A stretch of 64,000 bases of DNA. It comes from Candidatus Eiseniibacteriota bacterium (GTDB taxonomy: Bacteria > Eisenbacteria > RBG-16-71-46 > CAIMUX01). Location: contig CAIMUX010000130.1 in assembly GCA_903844735.1 (NCBI GenBank), positions 1 to 64,000 on the forward strand, given 5' to 3'. This document shows positions 47,298 to 57,960 of this stretch, in pieces; positions within the stretch are counted from its first letter, which is position 1, and every line of letters begins with the position of its first letter. Below the pieces are notes generated by a model. That model worked only from the letters and a program-made list of their open reading frames with translations, made no database searches and had not been told where the DNA came from. Both the position numbers and the translations under genes were made by a program.

Positions 47298-47541
47298 CGT
47301 GCCGTTCTCCTCCCCGGTCTCAGGGCCGCTCAGCGCGGCCCGGCGAACGGCGGTGAGCGTACCACAACTCGCGGCGGGGCGATCGCCTGCGCCTCGTGGC
47401 CCCTCGCCCGCTCAACAATGGAGGCGTATCTTCAAGCCGTGGAGCGCCGCTTCCCTTGGGGCCGACCCCTCCACCCGGGTGTAAGCAAATCTCCCCCTGT
47501 TCCCGTCCTTGACTGCGTACCGGGGAGTGAGGGTAGCCGCC

Positions 47542-48144
47542 ATGCAAGACCTCCAGATCGACAGGACGTTAGCGCGAGAGGCAGCGCAGGGCAGCGAAGA
47601 ATCCTGGAAGCGGATCTTTGAGGCCAGTTGCGATCGCCTCTTCTCCCTTCTCTGCTTCCAGACCGGCGATCGTGATGAAGCGCGCGATCTTCTGCAGGAG
47701 ACCTACCTGCAGGCGTTTCGCGGACTGCGGGGGTATCGCGGCGAGGCTCCACTGGAGTCGTGGCTGCGGGCCATCGCGCTGCGCAAGGCGATCGACTGGA
47801 AGCGGGGAATCCTGCGGCGGATGAAGCGGACGGTGTCGCTCCGCGATGTCGCCATCAACGCGGAATCGGCGATGCGGGTCGCGCCGGTGGAGAGGCCTCG
47901 CAGCTCGGAGTCCGAGCGTGCGGTGCTCCACCGGGCCCTGAACCGGCTCTCCGAGCGGCAGCGCGCCGCGTTGCTCCTGCGCGAATGGGAAGAACAGAGC
48001 TTCCGCGAGATCGCCGCCATCCTCGGCTGCAACGAGAGCACCGCCCGGGTTCACCACACGCGAGCGCGGCAGAGGATGCAGGGATTCCTGAGCGCCGACA
48101 CGACTCCTTTCGGCCTGCGAGGCGAGGAAGGGCAGCAGTCATGA
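47542..48144 (+). CDS. ECF-type RNA polymerase sigma factor
   Basis: A 200-residue sigma factor. Region 2 is visible as DRDEARDLLQETYLQAFRGL with ESWLRAIALRKAIDWKR. Region 4 helix-turn-helix is LSERQRAALLLREWEEQSF followed by REIAAILGCNESTARVHHTR. Region 3 is missing, as in all ECF factors. ATG 47542 fits; the open frame starts 11 codons earlier without similarity. Its stop overlaps the ATG of the membrane protein by four bases, the classic sigma/anti-sigma arrangement. No autoregulated promoter motif was recognised upstream. Confidence 0.93.
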   Translation: MQDLQIDRTLAREAAQGSEESWKRIFEASCDRLFSLLCFQTGDRDEARDLLQETYLQAFRGLRGYRGEAPLESWLRAIALRKAIDWKRGILRRMKRTVSLRDVAINAESAMRVAPVERPRSSESERAVLHRALNRLSERQRAALLLREWEEQSFREIAAILGCNESTARVHHTRARQRMQGFLSADTTPFGLRGEEGQQS

Positions 48145-51100
48145 AAAACCTGTTTACGCGTCACCAGGAGGCACTCACCGCCTCCGAGAAGGACGAGCTC
48201 TGGTCCGAGATGCAGCGAGAGCTGTCGCGCGATTCCCGGGGCTGGAAGGCCCGGGCGGCGGCCACCGGACGGACAGTGCGCTCGGCGCTCTCGGGCTCTC
48301 CATCTCGATTCTTGCCGATGCCGTGGCCCGCGGTGGCTGCGGTCGGGCTGGTCGCGGTCGTCACGATTGCGCTGATCGTGGGCCACCCATGGGACTGGAT
48401 GCGTCCTGCGGTGCCGGGCACCGATTCGACGAAGAATGCAGTTCCGGCGACCGTTCCCACACAAGATCCAGAGCCGGCGGCAGGGCTGACGCAGAATCGA
48501 GAGCGGTCGACCAGTCCAGCGCGGAGCTTGGTGCCGACGGCCGATTCCACGCAGAATCGAGCGCTGCCGGCCGGCCCTACGCCAGCTCGGGCGCCGTACA
48601 TCCGGTCCGCGCCGAAAATCTTTCCTCCGTCCCTGGCCACCCAGGTGCCCCAAGTCGGGACTGACGGCAGTCCGGGCCGGAGCAAACCAGGGTCCGCGGC
48701 GGCAGGGGGTCGCAGCCACATGGCTGCCGTCACTCCAACGGAACAGGCTCCCTCGCCGACCGCGGGTCGGAGCCGGATCGGGCTGCCGCGCCCCGATTCG
48801 GCTTCGGCTCCGCCGGGCTCCGAGCCGCTCGCCGACGCGACCGGCGGCAGACCGGCCGCCACGACCGATGCGGGATCGACCGCCGATCAGGCTTCGAGAA
48901 GGCCTGACACCCCCCGCGTCACGGTAGAGCGGCTTCCCTTGGTTGGCGATCGCCCGACGGTCGTGCACACCGGTGGTGTCGCGGGCACGATCCGCGGCCG
49001 GGTGACCGACAAGCAAGATCGGCCTTTGGCGTATGTGAATATCGTCGTCGTGGGAACCGGCTGGGGAGCATTCAGCAAGGACGATGGTTCGTATGCGATC
49101 CTGAACGTCCTTCCGGGAACCTACTCCGTTCTGACATCCAGGATAGGGTACGGCGGCCAATCGGTTGACAGCGTCGTCATCGTGGCGGGCGGGACGGCCA
49201 CGGTCAACTTCGCGCTCGAGGTGAAACCGACGACCGACCTGTGTGAGGTCGAAATCGTGGCCCCCCGTGAGCGGATGAAGCTGAAGAGCTCGCGGACAAA
49301 TCGCCTCGATCCCCCTTCGGGCAGCCAAGGCCTGCCCGTGAGCGACATCACGGATTTGGTCGGTCTGCAAGCCGGCGTTGTCAAGGGCTCCACGGTATTG
49401 CACATCCGCGGTGGCCGTTCGGGCGAGGGTCGGCTTCTGGTCGACGGTGTACCGGTCACGAATCATCAGGTTGAGCTTCAGGTCAAAGGGGAGCCGACCG
49501 GCGTTCCGCAGGCGGGGAGCGGAGGACATGGAGCGCCGAGCGGGAGTCTCGGAACTGCGGTACGCGGCGGGGGCCCCGGTCCTTCGGCTCCCAGCGCCGG
49601 CTTCGGCGCCCCGGCACCCGACGGCACACCCCGCGTCCCGACGACCGGGGGCACCACGCTGCCGAACGACGAGGTCTACGACTCGATGTTCTTCGAGCAC
49701 TACGGCGTGAACCCGTTCATCGCTACCGACGAAGACCCGCTCTCGACCTTCGCGGTCGATGTCGACGCCGCCTCCTACACGGTAATGCGCCGCTACGTCG
49801 ACGGGGGACACCTGCCGGATAAGGATGCGGTGCGCATCGAGGAGTTCGTGAACTACTTCAAGCAGGATTATCCGCAGTTCAACGACACCGACTTTCGGAT
49901 CATGATCGACGGCGCCCCATCCCCGTTCGGCAAGGGCTATCAACTGCTGCGCGTCGGGATCAAGGCGCGCGACATCGCGGCGGCGGACCGCCGGCCGGCG
50001 AACCTGGTCTTCGTCATCGATGTCTCAGGGTCGATGGACCGTGAGGACAGGTTGGAGCTGGTCAAGCGCTCGCTGCGGGTGCTGGTCGACCGCCTGACTC
50101 CGCGGGATCGGGTCGGTATCGTGGTCTATGGGAACGTGGCGCACACAATCCTCGAGCCGATCTCGCTGGGACTCGACAGCAGGGACAATGCCCGGCCCGA
50201 CGGCTTCGCGGAGCGGCGGACTTGGAAGGCCCCACCGCGGGAAGATGAGGCTCCGGGCGCCGCGCGCGAACGAATCCTGGCCGCCATCGAGAGCCTGCAC
50301 CCGGAGGGCGCCACCAACGCCGAGGCCGGGCTCCTCCTCGGGTACGAAATGGCGCGTGGAATCTTCCGGGACGGCTTCATCAACCGCATCATCCTCTGCT
50401 CAGACGGCGTGGCCAACATCGGCCAGACCGGCCCCGAGTCGATCCTCGAACGGGTGCGCGGCGAGGCCTCCCGCGGCATCCAGATCACGACCATCGGCTT
50501 CGGCATGGGCAACTACAACGACGTGCTGATGGAGCAGCTCGCCGACCGGGGAGACGGCAACTACTATTACGTGGACGAGATCGGCGAGGCCAACCGTGTG
50601 CTTGCGGAGAACCTCACCGGCACGCTGCAGACCGTGGCGCGCGACGCGAAGATCCAAGTCGAGTTCGACCCGTGCTGTGTGCAACGGTACCGTCTCATCG
50701 GTTTTGAGAACCGCGACGTGGCCGATCGGGATTTCCGCAACGACAAGGTCGACGCGGGAGAGATCGGCGCGGGGCACGAGGTCACGGCCCTGTACGAGGT
50801 CAAGCTCGTGGAAGGGAAGGACCGCGGACGGATTGTCACGGTGCGCTTCCGCTACCTTCCGCCGGATCGGAAATCGGAGTTCGAGCCGAAGGCCCGTGAA
50901 ATGGAGCAGACCTTCGATTCCTCCGAGCTGCAGCGCTCCTTCTACGATGCTCCGGCGCGCTTCCGGCTCGATGCCGCGGTGGCGGAGTTCGCGGAGGTCC
51001 TGCGGCACAGCTTCTGGGCCAAGGAGAGCCGCGTCGCGGATGTTCTGCCGGTGGCTCGCTCGGCCGCGCAGGATCTTCCGGATGACGGCGCGGTGCGTGA

Positions 51101-51182
51101 GTTCGTGAGGTTGGTCGAGAGCGCGGTCGGTCTTGCCGAGACGCTGAGCCCGGAAGAACAGCGAAGGATCCAGGGCCGTTAG
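48141..51182 (+). CDS. Membrane-anchored vWA protein with regulatory N-terminus, partner of ECF sigma
   Basis: A 1013-residue protein. Residues 1-58 are a charged, helical, anti-sigma-like cytoplasmic domain. One membrane segment spans 62-82. A disordered Pro/Thr/Ala linker (90-260) is followed by a carboxypeptidase-regulatory-like domain (281-362, GTIRGRVTDKQDRPLAYVNI). Next is a TonB-plug-like stretch (VSDITDLVGLQAGVVKG, then LHIRGGRSGEGRLLVDGVPV). The vWA domain has a complete MIDAS DVSGSM (627-632), and the C-terminal DUF3520-like region follows. The YfbK-like vWA half is a known family; the combination with a plug segment and an anti-sigma-like front is unusual. It probably senses an extracytoplasmic ligand and controls the sigma factor. 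Confidence 0.85.
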   Translation: MKNLFTRHQEALTASEKDELWSEMQRELSRDSRGWKARAAATGRTVRSALSGSPSRFLPMPWPAVAAVGLVAVVTIALIVGHPWDWMRPAVPGTDSTKNAVPATVPTQDPEPAAGLTQNRERSTSPARSLVPTADSTQNRALPAGPTPARAPYIRSAPKIFPPSLATQVPQVGTDGSPGRSKPGSAAAGGRSHMAAVTPTEQAPSPTAGRSRIGLPRPDSASAPPGSEPLADATGGRPAATTDAGSTADQASRRPDTPRVTVERLPLVGDRPTVVHTGGVAGTIRGRVTDKQDRPLAYVNIVVVGTGWGAFSKDDGSYAILNVLPGTYSVLTSRIGYGGQSVDSVVIVAGGTATVNFALEVKPTTDLCEVEIVAPRERMKLKSSRTNRLDPPSGSQGLPVSDITDLVGLQAGVVKGSTVLHIRGGRSGEGRLLVDGVPVTNHQVELQVKGEPTGVPQAGSGGHGAPSGSLGTAVRGGGPGPSAPSAGFGAPAPDGTPRVPTTGGTTLPNDEVYDSMFFEHYGVNPFIATDEDPLSTFAVDVDAASYTVMRRYVDGGHLPDKDAVRIEEFVNYFKQDYPQFNDTDFRIMIDGAPSPFGKGYQLLRVGIKARDIAAADRRPANLVFVIDVSGSMDREDRLELVKRSLRVLVDRLTPRDRVGIVVYGNVAHTILEPISLGLDSRDNARPDGFAERRTWKAPPREDEAPGAARERILAAIESLHPEGATNAEAGLLLGYEMARGIFRDGFINRIILCSDGVANIGQTGPESILERVRGEASRGIQITTIGFGMGNYNDVLMEQLADRGDGNYYYVDEIGEANRVLAENLTGTLQTVARDAKIQVEFDPCCVQRYRLIGFENRDVADRDFRNDKVDAGEIGAGHEVTALYEVKLVEGKDRGRIVTVRFRYLPPDRKSEFEPKAREMEQTFDSSELQRSFYDAPARFRLDAAVAEFAEVLRHSFWAKESRVADVLPVARSAAQDLPDDGAVREFVRLVESAVGLAETLSPEEQRRIQGR

Positions 51183-51193
51183 AACGCTATCGG

Positions 51194-51243
51194 GAGCCCG
51201 TCCGGGTGGGGAGCGAGATGCCGTTCACCACCCGGGCGGGCTC
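51194..51243 (+). terminator. Rho-independent terminator after the vWA gene
   Basis: A 16-base arm (51194-51209) pairs with 51228-51243 with a single G-U; the loop is 18 bases. It starts 12 bases after the stop. No T-run follows, so it may act as an mRNA-end stabiliser. Confidence 0.75.
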
Positions 51244-51953
51244 ATGGTCTCCCAGCGGGACGACGGGATGTTGGCTCTGAGCGTAAATGGGTCTTCGTGC
51301 CACTGGCCCGGCCGGCTACTCATGCGTGCGTGCACCATGATGATTCCGTCACGACGACCCCGGTTGGGCTGCTCCCGTGGTCGTCGAAGACGTGAATGCA
51401 TTGCTGGCTAGCAGGTTACGCGACCGAGAGCCGAATCACCAGATGGAGGATCGACGGCTCAGGACTTACGGTCGATGTCTGATTGCACCGGGTTCTCCCC
51501 GAAGCGCGCCTTCCACAGGCGCGGGGTGAGCAGCGCGACGTCCTTGGCCGGTGGTTGGGTTCGGGCCCACTGGAGTAGGATTCCACGGGAGTATCGCCCG
51601 AACGCCGCGAGCCGGCCGACCGCCCTCCTCGCGTCCGATGACCTCGTGGCGGCTGGCATCTTGTTCTCTAGGCACCGTCGGGATCGCCGTCAGAAAGAAA
51701 CTTCGGACTAGGGAAACAGACAAGCGACCACCGGTTGGGCCACAGTCAGGTTCGCCTCGGCAATCCCCAGAGGGACTCACCACCGGCACGCTCAGCCCAG
51801 TCCCGGCGCGTGGCCCCCCGGCGATGTACTTCCATCCGGCAACCGTGTTGCTACTGCCGAACAAGACGGCATGTCGAACGGCGCCAAGCGGAACGGGGGG
51901 GCTTCCCGCGCCTGCTGACAGTGCTGTTCGACGTACGTTAGGGGGTGTTCGAG
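51244..51953. other. 710 bases without a supported gene
   Basis: Open frames of 66-133 residues exist on the minus strand (51459-51864) but lack a ribosome-binding site and match nothing I know. An eight-base-pair stem (CGACGACC / GGTCGTCG) is at 51352-51386. The stretch must contain the promoter for the Phd-type gene at 51954, but no clear boxes are seen. Confidence 0.5.
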
Positions 51954-52178
51954 ATGGCCGAAATCCCGAAAGTCCTTCCTGTCACCGGCCTTCGTCAGGA
52001 TGCCGCCGCGGTCCTGCGTCGTGTCCGCGGGCTCAAGCAGCCACTCATCATCACGCAGCGAGGCCGTGCGGCGGCCGTGCGGCTCAGCGTGGACGCCTAC
52101 GAATGGGGTAAGCGGGAGCGCCAGATCCAGCTTCTTCTCGCCCGGAGCGAACAGGAAATTGCCGCTGGCAAGGGGTAC
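51954..52178 (+). CDS. Phd/YefM-type antitoxin domain, no stop codon of its own
   Basis: Residues 1-75 read PVTGLRQDAAAVLRRVRGLK and PLIITQRGRAAAVRLSVDAY, the prevent-host-death family fold that binds DNA and neutralises RelE/Doc-type toxins. ATG 51954 has AGGGGG eight bases upstream. The family tail stops at AAGKGY, where other members continue for about 10 residues to a stop; here the frame runs on through 30 unrelated residues into the membrane protein. No toxin gene follows. It is either an orphan antitoxin truncated at its end or the front of a real fusion. Confidence 0.75.
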
Positions 52179-52268
52179 GGCCCGCTCGCCGCGCAACCTG
52201 CACCTGGGCCTTGCCGTACGGGATCCACGGTCCTTTCGGGGGAGGGCCCCACCCAGGAGGACGCAGCC

Positions 52269-54503
52269 TTGAGCCGCCGAAACCCACTCATTCTCGGCCT
52301 TCTCTCCGTCTCGATCATCTCCTTGGAACTGAGCTGGACCCGCATCTTCTCCGCCGAGTTCTTCTACACCTTCGCGTTTCTCATTCTCTCGCTGGCCATT
52401 CTCGGGCTCGGCCTTGGGGCTCTCGCGCTTCGCCTGTTTTCCGGCCTGGACAGGGACGAGTCGCTGCCGTGGCTTCTTTCGTTGACAGGAGCGGCCGTGC
52501 TGGCCGGCCCTCCCTTGGTCTTCCGGTTGGGCCTCGACTTCGCCCAGACCTTCCATTCCGCGGCGATGGTGGCGAAGCTCCTGCTGGCGATCGCCCTCCT
52601 CAGTTCTGCGTATCTTTTCGGCGGATGCGCCTTGGCACTCCTCCTGCGCCGGAACCACCGGGATATCCCGCGCCTCTACATGGCCGACCTTGTCGGAGGT
52701 GGCCTCGGCGTCCTGTTGGTCATCCCGTCGATGAACCTCCTCGGCACCCCCGCGGCCGCCTTCGGCTGCGCCCTGCCGGTCCTGCTCGCGGCCTTCCTCG
52801 TGGCGGGTCGCCGGCTGAGGATTCTCCCCGCCATCCTGGCGATCGGCATGCTGTTCCTCGGACAGCACGGCGCTGATCTCCTGGAGCTCAAGCGGGAGGA
52901 GCCGGCGCCGGTGATCTACCGGCACTGGGATGCGGTGGCCAAGATGAAGATCCTGGACCGGGGGGAGGGGCTCCGCGGCCTCAACATCGACAACGCCGCC
53001 AACTCCCCCGTCTTCCAGTTCGACGGCAACTGGGACCGGCCCGACTCCCTGCGGTTTCAGTTCAACATCGACGTGACGAACCTCGTCCACCGGTTCGATG
53101 CCTGTACCTTCCTCTCGCTTGGTGCCGGCGGCGGCGGGGACGTACTGCAGGCACTTCAGGCGGGCGCAGCGAAGGTCCATGCCGTCGAGGTCGTGCCGCA
53201 GGCCAACTGGCTGCTGACCAAGGGGCCGCTCGCCGCGTACACCGGGCAGATCTACGCCGACCCGCGGGTCATTGTGGCGACCGAGGATGCCCGGGCCTAT
53301 GTCCGCCGCCACCCGCAAACGTTCGACGTCATCTACTCGCTCAGCTCCAACACGTTTGCGGCCCTGGCCTCCGGCGCTTTCGCCATGGCGGAGAACTACC
53401 TCTTCACCACCGAGGCGTTCGAGGACTACTGGAACGCGCTGACTCCGCACGGCTTCCTCTCGATGGAACATCAGTTCTACATGCCTCGGCTGGTGAGCGA
53501 GGTCCGCGACGCCCTGCGCCACTTGGGCGTGCCGAACCCCGAACAGCATTTCGCGATCTACAAGCTCCCCTCCCTTCGCCGTCACATCCTGCTTCTTTCC
53601 AAGGATCCTTTGACCGACGAGATCCGGGAGAACGCCTACGGCGCCGAGGCGTTCCACAGCGAGGAGTACCTCCAGCTCCTTTACCCGCCCACGCCGGGAA
53701 AAGACGCAGGCCTGATCGCCCGGATCGTCGCGAACGGCTGGCGCGCCGAACAGGACTCCGCGGCGATCAACCTCTCGCCGGCCACCGACAGCCGTCCCTA
53801 CGTCGCCCAGCTCGGCCTCTGGAAGAACCTCCGCCTCACCGGGCTCGACAAGATCACCCCGTACGAATTCAACGGCTTCCCCTTGGCCCGGCTTCTTGCG
53901 GTCGTGATCCTTCTCGTGGGACTTCTTTTCGTGGTGCCGCTGACTCTCCTGCCCTATCTGAGAAGCGACGAACGGCTGCGCCCGGTCCCGTGGCTCTACT
54001 TCTTCACGATCGGGATGGCTTTCATGATGGTCGAGGTAATCCTGATCCAGAAGTACACGCTCTTCGTCGGGCCGTCGGTCTACGGCCTCGCCACCATCCT
54101 CTTCACGTTGCTGTTCTGTTCCGGACTGGGAAGCCGCGCCTCCCGCTCGGTGGATGACCGCGTGCCGTTCGTCGCCATCGCCGGCTGGCTGCTCCTGGAC
54201 ATCTTCGTCTTTCCGCGTCTGCTGACCATCCTGGGCGGGCTGACCCTCCCGCCGAGGATGGTCATCGTCGCCCTGTTGGTGGCGCCCCTGGGCTTCGCCA
54301 TGGGAATGCCTTTCCCCAAGGCCGGACTCCGCGTGGGGCCGCTGATCGACTGGGGCCTCGCGGTCACCGGGACCGCATCGGTCCTGGGATCAGCCACGAT
54401 CCTCCTCGTGGCGTTCTCGTTCGGATTCGGATTCGCACTGGCGGTGCCGGCTCTGTTGTACCTGGTCGCTCTCGGAATGCTGCGCCGAAAGAGCGCCTGG
54501 TAG
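52269..54503 (+). CDS. Spermidine-synthase-like membrane protein
   Basis: A 744-residue protein. Six or seven membrane segments lie in the front (LLSVSIISLELSWTRIFSAE), then a soluble SAM-binding spermidine-synthase-type domain (FLSLGAGGGGDVLQALQAG, VHAVEVVPQANW), then five C-terminal membrane segments. This layout matches the large bacterial family of membrane-embedded spermidine-synthase-like proteins, whose function is mostly unknown. I favour TTG 52269 because AGGAGG lies eight bases before it. The same frame is open back to 51945, giving an 852-residue fusion with the Phd domain. Confidence 0.85.
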   Translation: MSRRNPLILGLLSVSIISLELSWTRIFSAEFFYTFAFLILSLAILGLGLGALALRLFSGLDRDESLPWLLSLTGAAVLAGPPLVFRLGLDFAQTFHSAAMVAKLLLAIALLSSAYLFGGCALALLLRRNHRDIPRLYMADLVGGGLGVLLVIPSMNLLGTPAAAFGCALPVLLAAFLVAGRRLRILPAILAIGMLFLGQHGADLLELKREEPAPVIYRHWDAVAKMKILDRGEGLRGLNIDNAANSPVFQFDGNWDRPDSLRFQFNIDVTNLVHRFDACTFLSLGAGGGGDVLQALQAGAAKVHAVEVVPQANWLLTKGPLAAYTGQIYADPRVIVATEDARAYVRRHPQTFDVIYSLSSNTFAALASGAFAMAENYLFTTEAFEDYWNALTPHGFLSMEHQFYMPRLVSEVRDALRHLGVPNPEQHFAIYKLPSLRRHILLLSKDPLTDEIRENAYGAEAFHSEEYLQLLYPPTPGKDAGLIARIVANGWRAEQDSAAINLSPATDSRPYVAQLGLWKNLRLTGLDKITPYEFNGFPLARLLAVVILLVGLLFVVPLTLLPYLRSDERLRPVPWLYFFTIGMAFMMVEVILIQKYTLFVGPSVYGLATILFTLLFCSGLGSRASRSVDDRVPFVAIAGWLLLDIFVFPRLLTILGGLTLPPRMVIVALLVAPLGFAMGMPFPKAGLRVGPLIDWGLAVTGTASVLGSATILLVAFSFGFGFALAVPALLYLVALGMLRRKSAW

Positions 54504-54663
54504 AGAGCGTTTCCTCACGATGCGATCACGTTGGGCCGCAAAGCGATAACCCCGAGCCCACGAAACCGGCCCGCCCATTCCTCGGCATGCGGTATACTGG
54601 CTGGGCTGCCGACTCGATCCGCGCGTCCGCCGGGGAGAGGCCGTGCCACCGTAGGAATCGCCC

Positions 54664-54933
54664 ATGCAGAGCACCCGTCCCCAATATTTCCGCTTTCGGT
54701 ACATCGACCGCGAGGTACGCCGCGGTCGCTATCCGAACTGTCCCCAACTGGGAGAGACACTGGGCGTTTCCACCCGGACGATCCCGTCGGCGCGGCGCCG
54801 ACTGCGCGAGCCGTTGGAGCGGATCCGCGAGCGATACGAGCCACCCCCGCCGAGTACTATGCGGTCCCGCAGAAAGGGGCAGGGGACCGGCCGCGTCCTC
54901 AAGCCTCCATCCCCTGCGAGGATGCCGGTCTGA
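54664..54933 (+). pseudogene. HTH regulator N-terminal fragment (WYL-type)
   Basis: An 89-residue frame begins with RFRYIDREVRRGRYPNCPQL and GETLGVSTRTI, a winged-helix start typical of WYL-domain regulators (D-R-x-L-R-R-G-R-Y-P). After RTI the expected QRDIDFMRD helix is replaced by Arg/Pro-rich sequence, so a frameshift or deletion has removed the rest. It might still be a small DNA-binding protein. It lies 84 bases before efp. Confidence 0.55.
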
Positions 54934-55016
54934 CCGGTCACGCACCGACCCAATCATCGACGGCAACCGGTTCGCCCGCAGGGGACTGCGGAGAGGATCA
55001 CGCAGGGGAGAATTCC

Positions 55017-55574
55017 ATGATTCCAGCAACGCAAATCAAGGTAGGCCAGGTGATCATTTTCAACGGCGGGCCGTGTCGCGTGGTGAAGACGCTGCACCTC
55101 ACGCCGGGCAACTGGCGCGGCATGGTCCAGATGAAGCTCGCCAACCTCAAGACCGGCACCGGCTACGAGAATCGCTTCCGCTCGGAAGACAAAGTCGACC
55201 TCGCCGAGCTCGACAGCCACACGCTGAAGTATCTCTACCACACCGCGGAGGAGTACCACTTCATGAGCACAGAGACGTACGAGATGATGATGCTCACGAA
55301 GGATGAGTTAGGCGACACGGCAAACTACCTCATCGAGGATTCGGAAGTGACCGCCCTCTACTACGAGGGGCGCCCGGTCTCCATCGAGGTACCGAACTTC
55401 GTCATCCTCACGGTCACAGAGACCGATCCGACCCTGCGCGCGGCCACGGTCAGTTCCTCCCCCAAGCCGGCCACCCTGGAGACGGGGTTGCAGGTGCGGG
55501 TGCCGCAGTTCATCAACAATGGCGATAGGGTGAAGATCGACACGCGGGATGGGACGTTCGTCGAGCGGGCCTGA
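55017..55574 (+). CDS. efp: Elongation factor P
   Basis: A 185-residue EF-P with the three beta-barrel domains. KVGQVIIFNGGPCRVVKTLH opens domain I. The family C-terminal signature is TLETGLQVRVPQFINNGD followed by RVKIDTRDG. It stimulates peptide bond formation at proline runs. The domain I loop, normally P-G-K-G with the modified Lys (or Arg), reads TPGNWRG, putting Asn32 at the tip, with Trp33 and Arg34 beyond it. ATG 55017 has GGGGAG eight bases before it. There are no modification genes (epmA, epmB or earP) nearby. A perfect hairpin at 55631 closes the gene. Confidence 0.95.
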   Translation: MIPATQIKVGQVIIFNGGPCRVVKTLHLTPGNWRGMVQMKLANLKTGTGYENRFRSEDKVDLAELDSHTLKYLYHTAEEYHFMSTETYEMMMLTKDELGDTANYLIEDSEVTALYYEGRPVSIEVPNFVILTVTETDPTLRAATVSSSPKPATLETGLQVRVPQFINNGDRVKIDTRDGTFVERA

Positions 55575-56401: not shown

Positions 56402-56891
56402 CTCGAGCTCGACGCAGTTGCCGCCGATCTCGTGCGCTCCCCGGTGAATCTTCGCCCTCACTTCGCCCCGATCTTGCCTCAGGCGTCCCGAAGATACCAT
56501 CCCGGCTGTGTGGGATCACAGACCCAAACGACCGAACTCCCGCACTTCATTGAACAGTCCAATTCGGTTACCTGAAGTCCACTTCTGAGCCCCGGACTAT
56601 CCAGATCCCCATTGACCCCGGCAACGCTTCCAACCCCGAAGCACCCCTCAGCCGCTCAGTTCACTGCTCGGGACTTCACCGTTGACTACGCCCTCCTGTG
56701 GCCTGGCTATGTAGCGAGAAGCCGCCGCTAGCCGTTGCGCATGGATCTTCTGGGCAGATTTCTCGGCTGGCCACCCTATCACCAGGGCGTGATTCATGTT
56801 CTCCGACACGGGGTCCGGCTTGGCGTCGAGTCCGTACGTTCTGATGATCTCGACGCCCAGGATCGCCCGGCCGTATAGCGTACCCGAAGGC
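56402..56891. other. No gene seen
   Basis: About 490 bases lying between two gene fragments, with no supported frame. The codon pattern and lower GC around 56570-56650 differ from nearby genes, consistent with decayed accessory DNA. Confidence 0.45.
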
Positions 56892-57143
56892 GACTGCCCG
56901 CGCCTGATCGACGAGTGGCAACTCGTGCCCGCGGTGTGGAATCACATCCGCCGACGGGTGGACGATCACCCAGACCAGACTGGACGTTTCATCCTGACCG
57001 GGTCGGCGGTACCCGCTGACGATGCAACCCGCCACAGCGGCAGTCTGCGCTTCACCCGCTTGCGCATGCGGCCGATGTCGCTTTCAGAAACCGGCCACTC
57101 CACGGGCCAGGTTTCGCTCGCCTCACTCTTCGACGGCGGTGAG
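56892..57143 (+). pseudogene. DUF4143 ATPase internal fragment
   Basis: The frame encodes PRLIDEWQLVPAVWNHIRRR, then GRFILTGSAVPADDATRHSG and RLRMRPMSLSETGHSTG, the middle of a DUF4143 ATPase (Walker B region and sensor). Walker A is missing upstream, and the C-terminal half is missing downstream. The break at 57143 coincides within three bases with the start of repeat copy C. It is the fourth DUF4143-type locus in the window. Confidence 0.8.
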
Positions 57144-57145
57144 CC

Positions 57146-57173
57146 ACACGAACCTGCACCCATCCGGTGAACA
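57146..57173 (+). repeat. Partial copy C of the 99-bp dispersed repeat
   Basis: A 28-base core matches copy B with two mismatches. It begins at the truncation point of the DUF4143 fragment. Confidence 0.65.

Positions 57174-57245: not shown

Positions 57246-57960
<715 letters not shown>

Follow-up and report, generated by a model that had tools for sequence, protein, structure and literature searches.

A single plus-strand open reading frame at 51945–54503 of the 64,000-nucleotide stretch of DNA analysed here (the window) runs, according to the ORF list, without an internal stop through a truncated Phd/YefM antitoxin and on into a membrane protein with a spermidine-synthase-like central domain. 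It is very probable, in our view, that the upstream part is the remnant of a toxin–antitoxin operon that came into frame by chance with a separate, conserved membrane gene. The frame comprises 852 aa when read from the GTG at 51945 and 849 aa from the ATG at 51954. Residues 1–75 (51954–52178, +; assigned by profiles and homology) correspond to the DNA-binding/dimerisation domain of the antitoxin, followed by a 30-codon in-frame linker (52179–52268, +) without counterpart in the antitoxins compared and by the 744 aa membrane protein with a TTG start (52269–54503, +; residues 106–849 of the frame). By eye, the antitoxin is preceded by the Shine-Dalgarno-like sequence AGGGGG (51940–51945, +; 8 nt before ATG 51954) and the membrane protein by the Shine-Dalgarno sequence AGGAGG (52255–52260, +; 8 nt before TTG 52269). 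An earlier note on this DNA had described an antitoxin with a good ribosome-binding site but no stop, a frame open for 30 residues into the membrane protein, and a separate AGGAGG and TTG for the latter, and these coordinates agree with all of it: antitoxin homology ends at nucleotide 52178 and the frame stays open to 54503. Since there is no stop between the two parts, translation from 51954 must yield a fusion protein. Single-sequence structure prediction of the fusion gave a mean pLDDT of 39.8, too low to be of use.

The identification of the upstream part as a Phd-type antitoxin was confirmed by two profiles, both above their cut-offs. PF02604 (PhdYeFM_antitox) matched residues 6–73 of the antitoxin part alone with 37.1 bits (37.2 in a six-frame search) and the whole joined protein with 32.2 bits, against a cut-off of 29.8; TIGR01552 scored 28.1 bits with the antitoxin part alone and 23.7 with the whole protein (cut-off 20.8). 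The domain is free of stops and frameshifts and shares 57–61% identity with three aligned stand-alone antitoxins; judged by its sequence, it is real. A search of solved structures with the antitoxin returned none at E 0.01, close antitoxins had no match in plasmids at E 1e-5, and a contig scan with the antitoxin part alone, based on exact peptide patterns, confirmed no relative. Among the four genomes searched in the phylum of G052, G052 itself was the sole match.

Outside the window's genome, the seven antitoxins found to be closest (L011/L118, L012, L013, L122, L123, L124 and L125) all extend past the equivalent of residue 75 by a C-terminal tail of 16–18 residues, and each is directly followed, in the same direction, by a toxin ORF matching PF05016 ParE_toxin with 48–69 bits (cut-off 23). 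In the window, homology to these antitoxins stops at residue 75, and the toxin-binding tail is missing. The window copy shares with the YefM/Phd antitoxins (PF02604) of ParE/RelE-type operons the Phd/YefM domain and, ahead of the start, an operator-like pair of GTAC boxes at 12-bp spacing, but differs from them in having no toxin-binding tail, stop codon or adjoining toxin gene.

The absence of a toxin, as the earlier note had stated it, held in every search of the locus. None of the 10 ORFs over or around the locus belonged to a toxin family in Pfam, tblastn with three cognate-type toxins gave no match there (best anywhere in the window, E 0.019), and inspection by eye of the linker, in all three forward frames, revealed no toxin remnant. 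The locus is thus without the adjacent toxin gene of a type II toxin–antitoxin module. Two toxin relatives (34–35% identity) are encoded on other contigs of the window's genome, one of which, on C22, adjoins another Phd gene of that genome. Toxin-less (orphan) antitoxins are abundant in Klebsiella, where 2253 were counted in 105 of 233 groups, and degraded pairs are one proposed source of them (PMC7192599, in excerpt). The window antitoxin resembles these in being an antitoxin gene without a partner toxin; unlike the orphans described in that excerpt, it is itself truncated and in frame with an unrelated gene. A literature search for solitary or orphan antitoxins serving as regulators after toxin loss found no paper.

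A different toxin–antitoxin-like arrangement lies further along the window at 57339–57957 (+), where a BrnT toxin gene (PF04365, 95.6 bits; no NCBIfam match) is followed by an overlapping small ORF. The latter (57670–57957) occupies the position of a BrnA antitoxin and has no match in Pfam or NCBIfam. Near this locus, an AAA_14 ATPase fragment (56796–57167, +; 28.7 bits against a cut-off of 27, profile positions 66–127 of 129) is apparently a broken gene.

We assessed the conservation of the window antitoxin at the columns of the alignment that are invariant in the other seven. It deviates at 4 of 29 such columns, three of the four changes having BLOSUM62 values ≤0, while each of the others deviates at 0 or 1 of 25–26 columns (pooled, 3 of 178; p 0.008 by Fisher's test, with rows that are not independent). 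Its mean identity is also slightly lower, 0.56 vs. 0.58–0.61 for the seven. The window antitoxin therefore looks to be under relaxed constraint. Given the non-independent rows and the slightly greater overall divergence of the window copy, this counts as moderate evidence.

Upstream of the antitoxin, a YefM-like operator candidate, GTGC-N8-GTAC, is located at 51921–51936 (+), 17 nt before ATG 51954; its boxes are 12 bp apart centre to centre, and it has one mismatch to GTAC-N8-GTAC. Taking the best box pair per locus in the 14–20 nt range, we found a GTAC-like pair with 8 bases between the boxes 15–18 nt before the start at all eight antitoxin loci compared, with 0–2 mismatches. Such a site (≤1 mismatch) lies 15–20 nt upstream of 0.13% of window positions, a figure for a pattern chosen after the relatives had been seen. 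The published YefM operator has TGTACA cores 12 bp apart centre to centre (PMC7730913 and PMC4803016, both in excerpt), and because the pair in the window agrees with it, the membrane gene probably still has some of the former operon's promoter region upstream of it. With an uninterrupted Phd domain that passes the Pfam cut-off, a good ribosome-binding site and an operator-like pair, the antitoxin part may still be made and bind DNA. Three of the compared loci (L012, L124 and L125) show an apparent third GTAC-like box beside the ribosome-binding site, giving three boxes at 12-bp steps.

The downstream part has a start of its own in its relatives. A contig scan with the whole fused protein yielded 116 stretches encoding a relative, and the best 80 of these 116 correspond to 79 loci. 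The start-site sample consisted of the 34 relatives with at least 45% identity among the best 80, from which L056, L064 and L069 were dropped because their N-terminus was missing, leaving 31. In all 31, a start codon is found between −4 and +3 codons relative to the site aligned with TTG 52269, and in 28 of them an ATG, GTG or TTG falls exactly at that site. An in-frame stop lies no more than 44 codons upstream of the start in 29 of the 31, so that an antitoxin domain cannot be joined in frame in those relatives. The exceptions, L047 and L068, have frames open upstream for 223 and 150 codons, respectively, and neither long frame matched the close-antitoxin HMM. Inspection by eye showed G/A-rich sequence ahead of the start in many relatives and, in G046, a further relative from the window's own class (54–57% identity), an ATG (MKTTQ...) at the corresponding position. 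The first columns are gap-free in the alignment of the window protein and 16 relatives trimmed to those starts. From this agreement we infer that the membrane protein is mainly made from TTG 52269.

The membrane protein belongs to this family by full-length alignment, conserved start and invariant motifs, with 52–61% identity to the 16 aligned relatives. Relatives come from sequence records labelled Zixiibacteriota, Krumholzibacteriota, Neomarinimicrobiota, Calditrichaeota and others. Where the 16 relatives are all identical (146 columns), the window protein shows 4 deviations; the same test gives 0–12 of 142–154 for the relatives. By this measure the window protein appears normally conserved, with no sign of decay. 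A simple hydropathy threshold placed hydrophobic segments between residues 131 and 295 and between 637 and 845, on either side of the spermidine-synthase-like domain, and no strongly hydrophobic segment in residues 1–105 (maximum 0.56).

The likeness to spermidine synthase proposed in the earlier note is weak, with matches that stay below the cut-offs of both libraries (Pfam, 17.4 vs. 22.9 bits; NCBIfam, best 23.0 vs. 260). A 17-sequence profile of the window protein and its 16 relatives matched 3o4f with E 1.8e-05 over profile columns 222–357. The protein thus has in common with the spermidine synthase SpeE (3o4f, 1inl) a profile match over part of the domain, but it differs from SpeE in its sub-cut-off Pfam and NCBIfam scores and in a YSxSSN motif that is invariant in the alignment of the window protein and the 16 relatives. 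This motif occupies what we take to be the position of the catalytic Asp-bearing motif of SpeE. As YSxSSN replaces the Asp motif, the membrane protein is probably not an aminopropyltransferase. A literature search for transmembrane, fused spermidine synthase-like (aminopropyltransferase) proteins found no paper.

We searched for the joined arrangement in relatives with several queries. Two close-antitoxin HMMs were used, one including the window antitoxin and one built from the seven others; run in six frames over the 79 loci (from the best 80 of 116), with up to 3 kb on each side, they detected no antitoxin. The seven-antitoxin HMM scored the window antitoxin at 97.5 bits but recovered only three of the eight other Phd loci of the window's genome at E ≤10, two of them weakly. 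Because it performs poorly on distant Phd proteins, we also ran PF02604 against 32 genomes, those of the 34 relatives apart from L064 and L069. This gave 38 matches at E ≤0.001 in 16 of the 32 genomes, in open frames of 54–314 residues, and none in any of the 32 lay in a frame long enough for the ~744-residue protein. Of 385 genomes searched more broadly with the antitoxin part for close antitoxins, 31 yielded a match; among the candidates scored (at most 12 per genome), long frames were limited to the window's own (853) and one of 874 residues in G125. This second candidate, L143, was rejected as a fusion, since by eye its 22-bit antitoxin match falls inside a long helicase-like ORF and looks like chance.

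Among the 79 loci from the best 80 of 116, a match to the fused query began before residue 90 at eight (L041, L047, L050, L068, L070, L093, L098 and L103). Each of the five with at least 45% identity (L041, L047, L050, L068 and L070) has a start codon exactly at the site aligned with TTG 52269, and the additional match crosses an in-frame stop in L041 and L070. Among the genomes covered here, one carries the arrangement. The earlier note had proposed to look for the same fusion in relatives, and would have taken separate genes there together with protein starts only at 52269 as a refutation; the computational comparison came down on the side of separate genes: the fusion was found neither in the 32 relatives' genomes nor at the 79 loci, and all 31 starts lie near that position with no antitoxin joined to them. 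Among the membrane proteins with a spermidine-synthase-like domain that were examined, the window copy is the only one with an antitoxin frame joined upstream.

An open linker of 30 codons is unremarkable, as such stretches are common in this DNA: when 9130 stretches of 90 bases were sampled from the window's plus strand, 5776 (63%) had no in-frame stop. From this count we estimate that, with one frame in three suitable, about a fifth of random junctions would join both genes. GC content by codon position is 0.80/0.73/0.70 in the linker, unlike the 0.77/0.47/0.73 in the antitoxin and 0.66/0.44/0.87 in the membrane protein, the linker values coming from 30 codons. We found no repeat at the junction at 52178; the region 51150–52500 holds one direct pair, of 12 nt and within the membrane gene, and four inverted pairs.

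The neighbouring genes were also examined. Directly downstream, at 54531–55571 (+), lies an ORF for elongation factor P with all three domains; it has about 165 residues ahead of the first EF-P domain, so its true start is probably further in. Upstream, a large ORF at 47760–51179 (+) carries CarboxypepD_reg, vWF_A/VWA and YfbK_C domains, and its listed start overlaps a sigma-factor-like ORF in another frame (47509–48144; labelled by eye). The window's EF-P, vWA and peptidase genes had no match in the 79 loci (best 80 of 116), and the flanks are therefore no help in placing the event. Two other proteins of class members, at L013:1249–1875 and L017:150–968, have similar C-terminal tails (ASWGHIKSRYN and TASWGRLKSIYR), perhaps a sorting signal of the lineage.

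Several other explanations of the joined frame were weighed. Two fragments wrongly joined near 52178 would produce it as an assembly artefact, and the genome is indeed a draft of 142 contigs (completeness 95.77%, contamination 4.99%) in which AT skew shifts across the junction, though a hydrophobic coding stretch starts there. Even GC content across the junction (0.64–0.69), the lack of a junction repeat among the pairs found in 51150–52500 and the single occurrence in the assembly of the 501 bases around it make such an error very unlikely. The earlier note had also considered a regulator tethered to the membrane. In such a functional fusion, the downstream protein would hold the Phd DNA-binding domain at the membrane as a membrane-bound regulator in the manner of ToxR/CadC-type proteins. 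The one open frame, the Phd domain above cut-off and the retained candidate operator would suit this idea, and with no strongly hydrophobic segment in residues 1–105 the Phd domain could stay in the cytoplasm. The comparison with relatives does not support it: the fusion was found in none of the 32 genomes searched, and members of the membrane family have their start where 52269 lies in the window. Together with the excess of changes at conserved antitoxin positions and a linker that is not coding-like, though only 30 codons long, this leaves a functional fusion highly improbable.

Capture of the promoter is an unlikely reading too, yet clearly less so than either of these. Here the joining of the polypeptides would be irrelevant, but the membrane gene would have come under the antitoxin promoter and its autorepression, the repressor being either the truncated antitoxin or the fusion. 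The two genes are on the same strand with neither a gene nor a stop between them, and the operator-like GTGC-N8-GTAC keeps the 12-bp spacing of YefM (PMC7730913 and PMC4803016, in excerpt). Against this, the operator pattern is itself commoner than expected in the window (14 sites, where shuffles average 5.7), a search of 51100–52400 for sigma-70-like promoters came up empty, which is a weak test for an uncharacterised lineage, the constraint on the antitoxin is relaxed, and the 90-base linker may hold a promoter. A captured autorepression circuit, in which the truncated antitoxin, as the N-terminus of the membrane protein or on the same message, would repress its own promoter from the membrane, is a long shot.

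The chance joining of a remnant to a conserved gene accounts best for these observations. The two genes at the locus would have arisen separately: upstream, what remains of a YefM/ParE-type operon, and downstream, a conserved membrane gene. A deletion would have removed the toxin-binding tail of the antitoxin, its stop codon and the toxin, leaving behind the operator-like pair and the DNA-binding domain as a truncated orphan antitoxin that ends by chance in the frame of the membrane gene. The earlier note had suggested two genes accidentally joined by loss of a stop; the accidental joining is supported, but the tail and toxin are lost as well. With the tail, 16–18 residues in the seven close antitoxins, and the toxin gene also gone, a point mutation of the stop codon is a less likely cause than the deletion or replacement of a larger piece. 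The membrane protein would be translated from TTG 52269 on its own AGGAGG, while the remnant upstream of it may also be expressed, which would give some 849-residue product as a by-product. We infer that the antitoxin is decaying, and we see no indication in the sequences of selection for the 849-residue product. The remnant may still weakly repress its own promoter or lend that promoter to the membrane gene.

The locus is one more toxin-less antitoxin, with the twist that it is truncated and in frame with an unrelated gene. It calls for caution in annotation, as gene callers that take the longest frame would report a protein of ~850 residues, which could seed a false "antitoxin–membrane fusion" family. 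It is also a clear example of a toxin–antitoxin operon after the loss of its toxin, with an operator-like pair and the DNA-binding domain still there. Were promoter capture true, such leftovers could rewire neighbouring genes.
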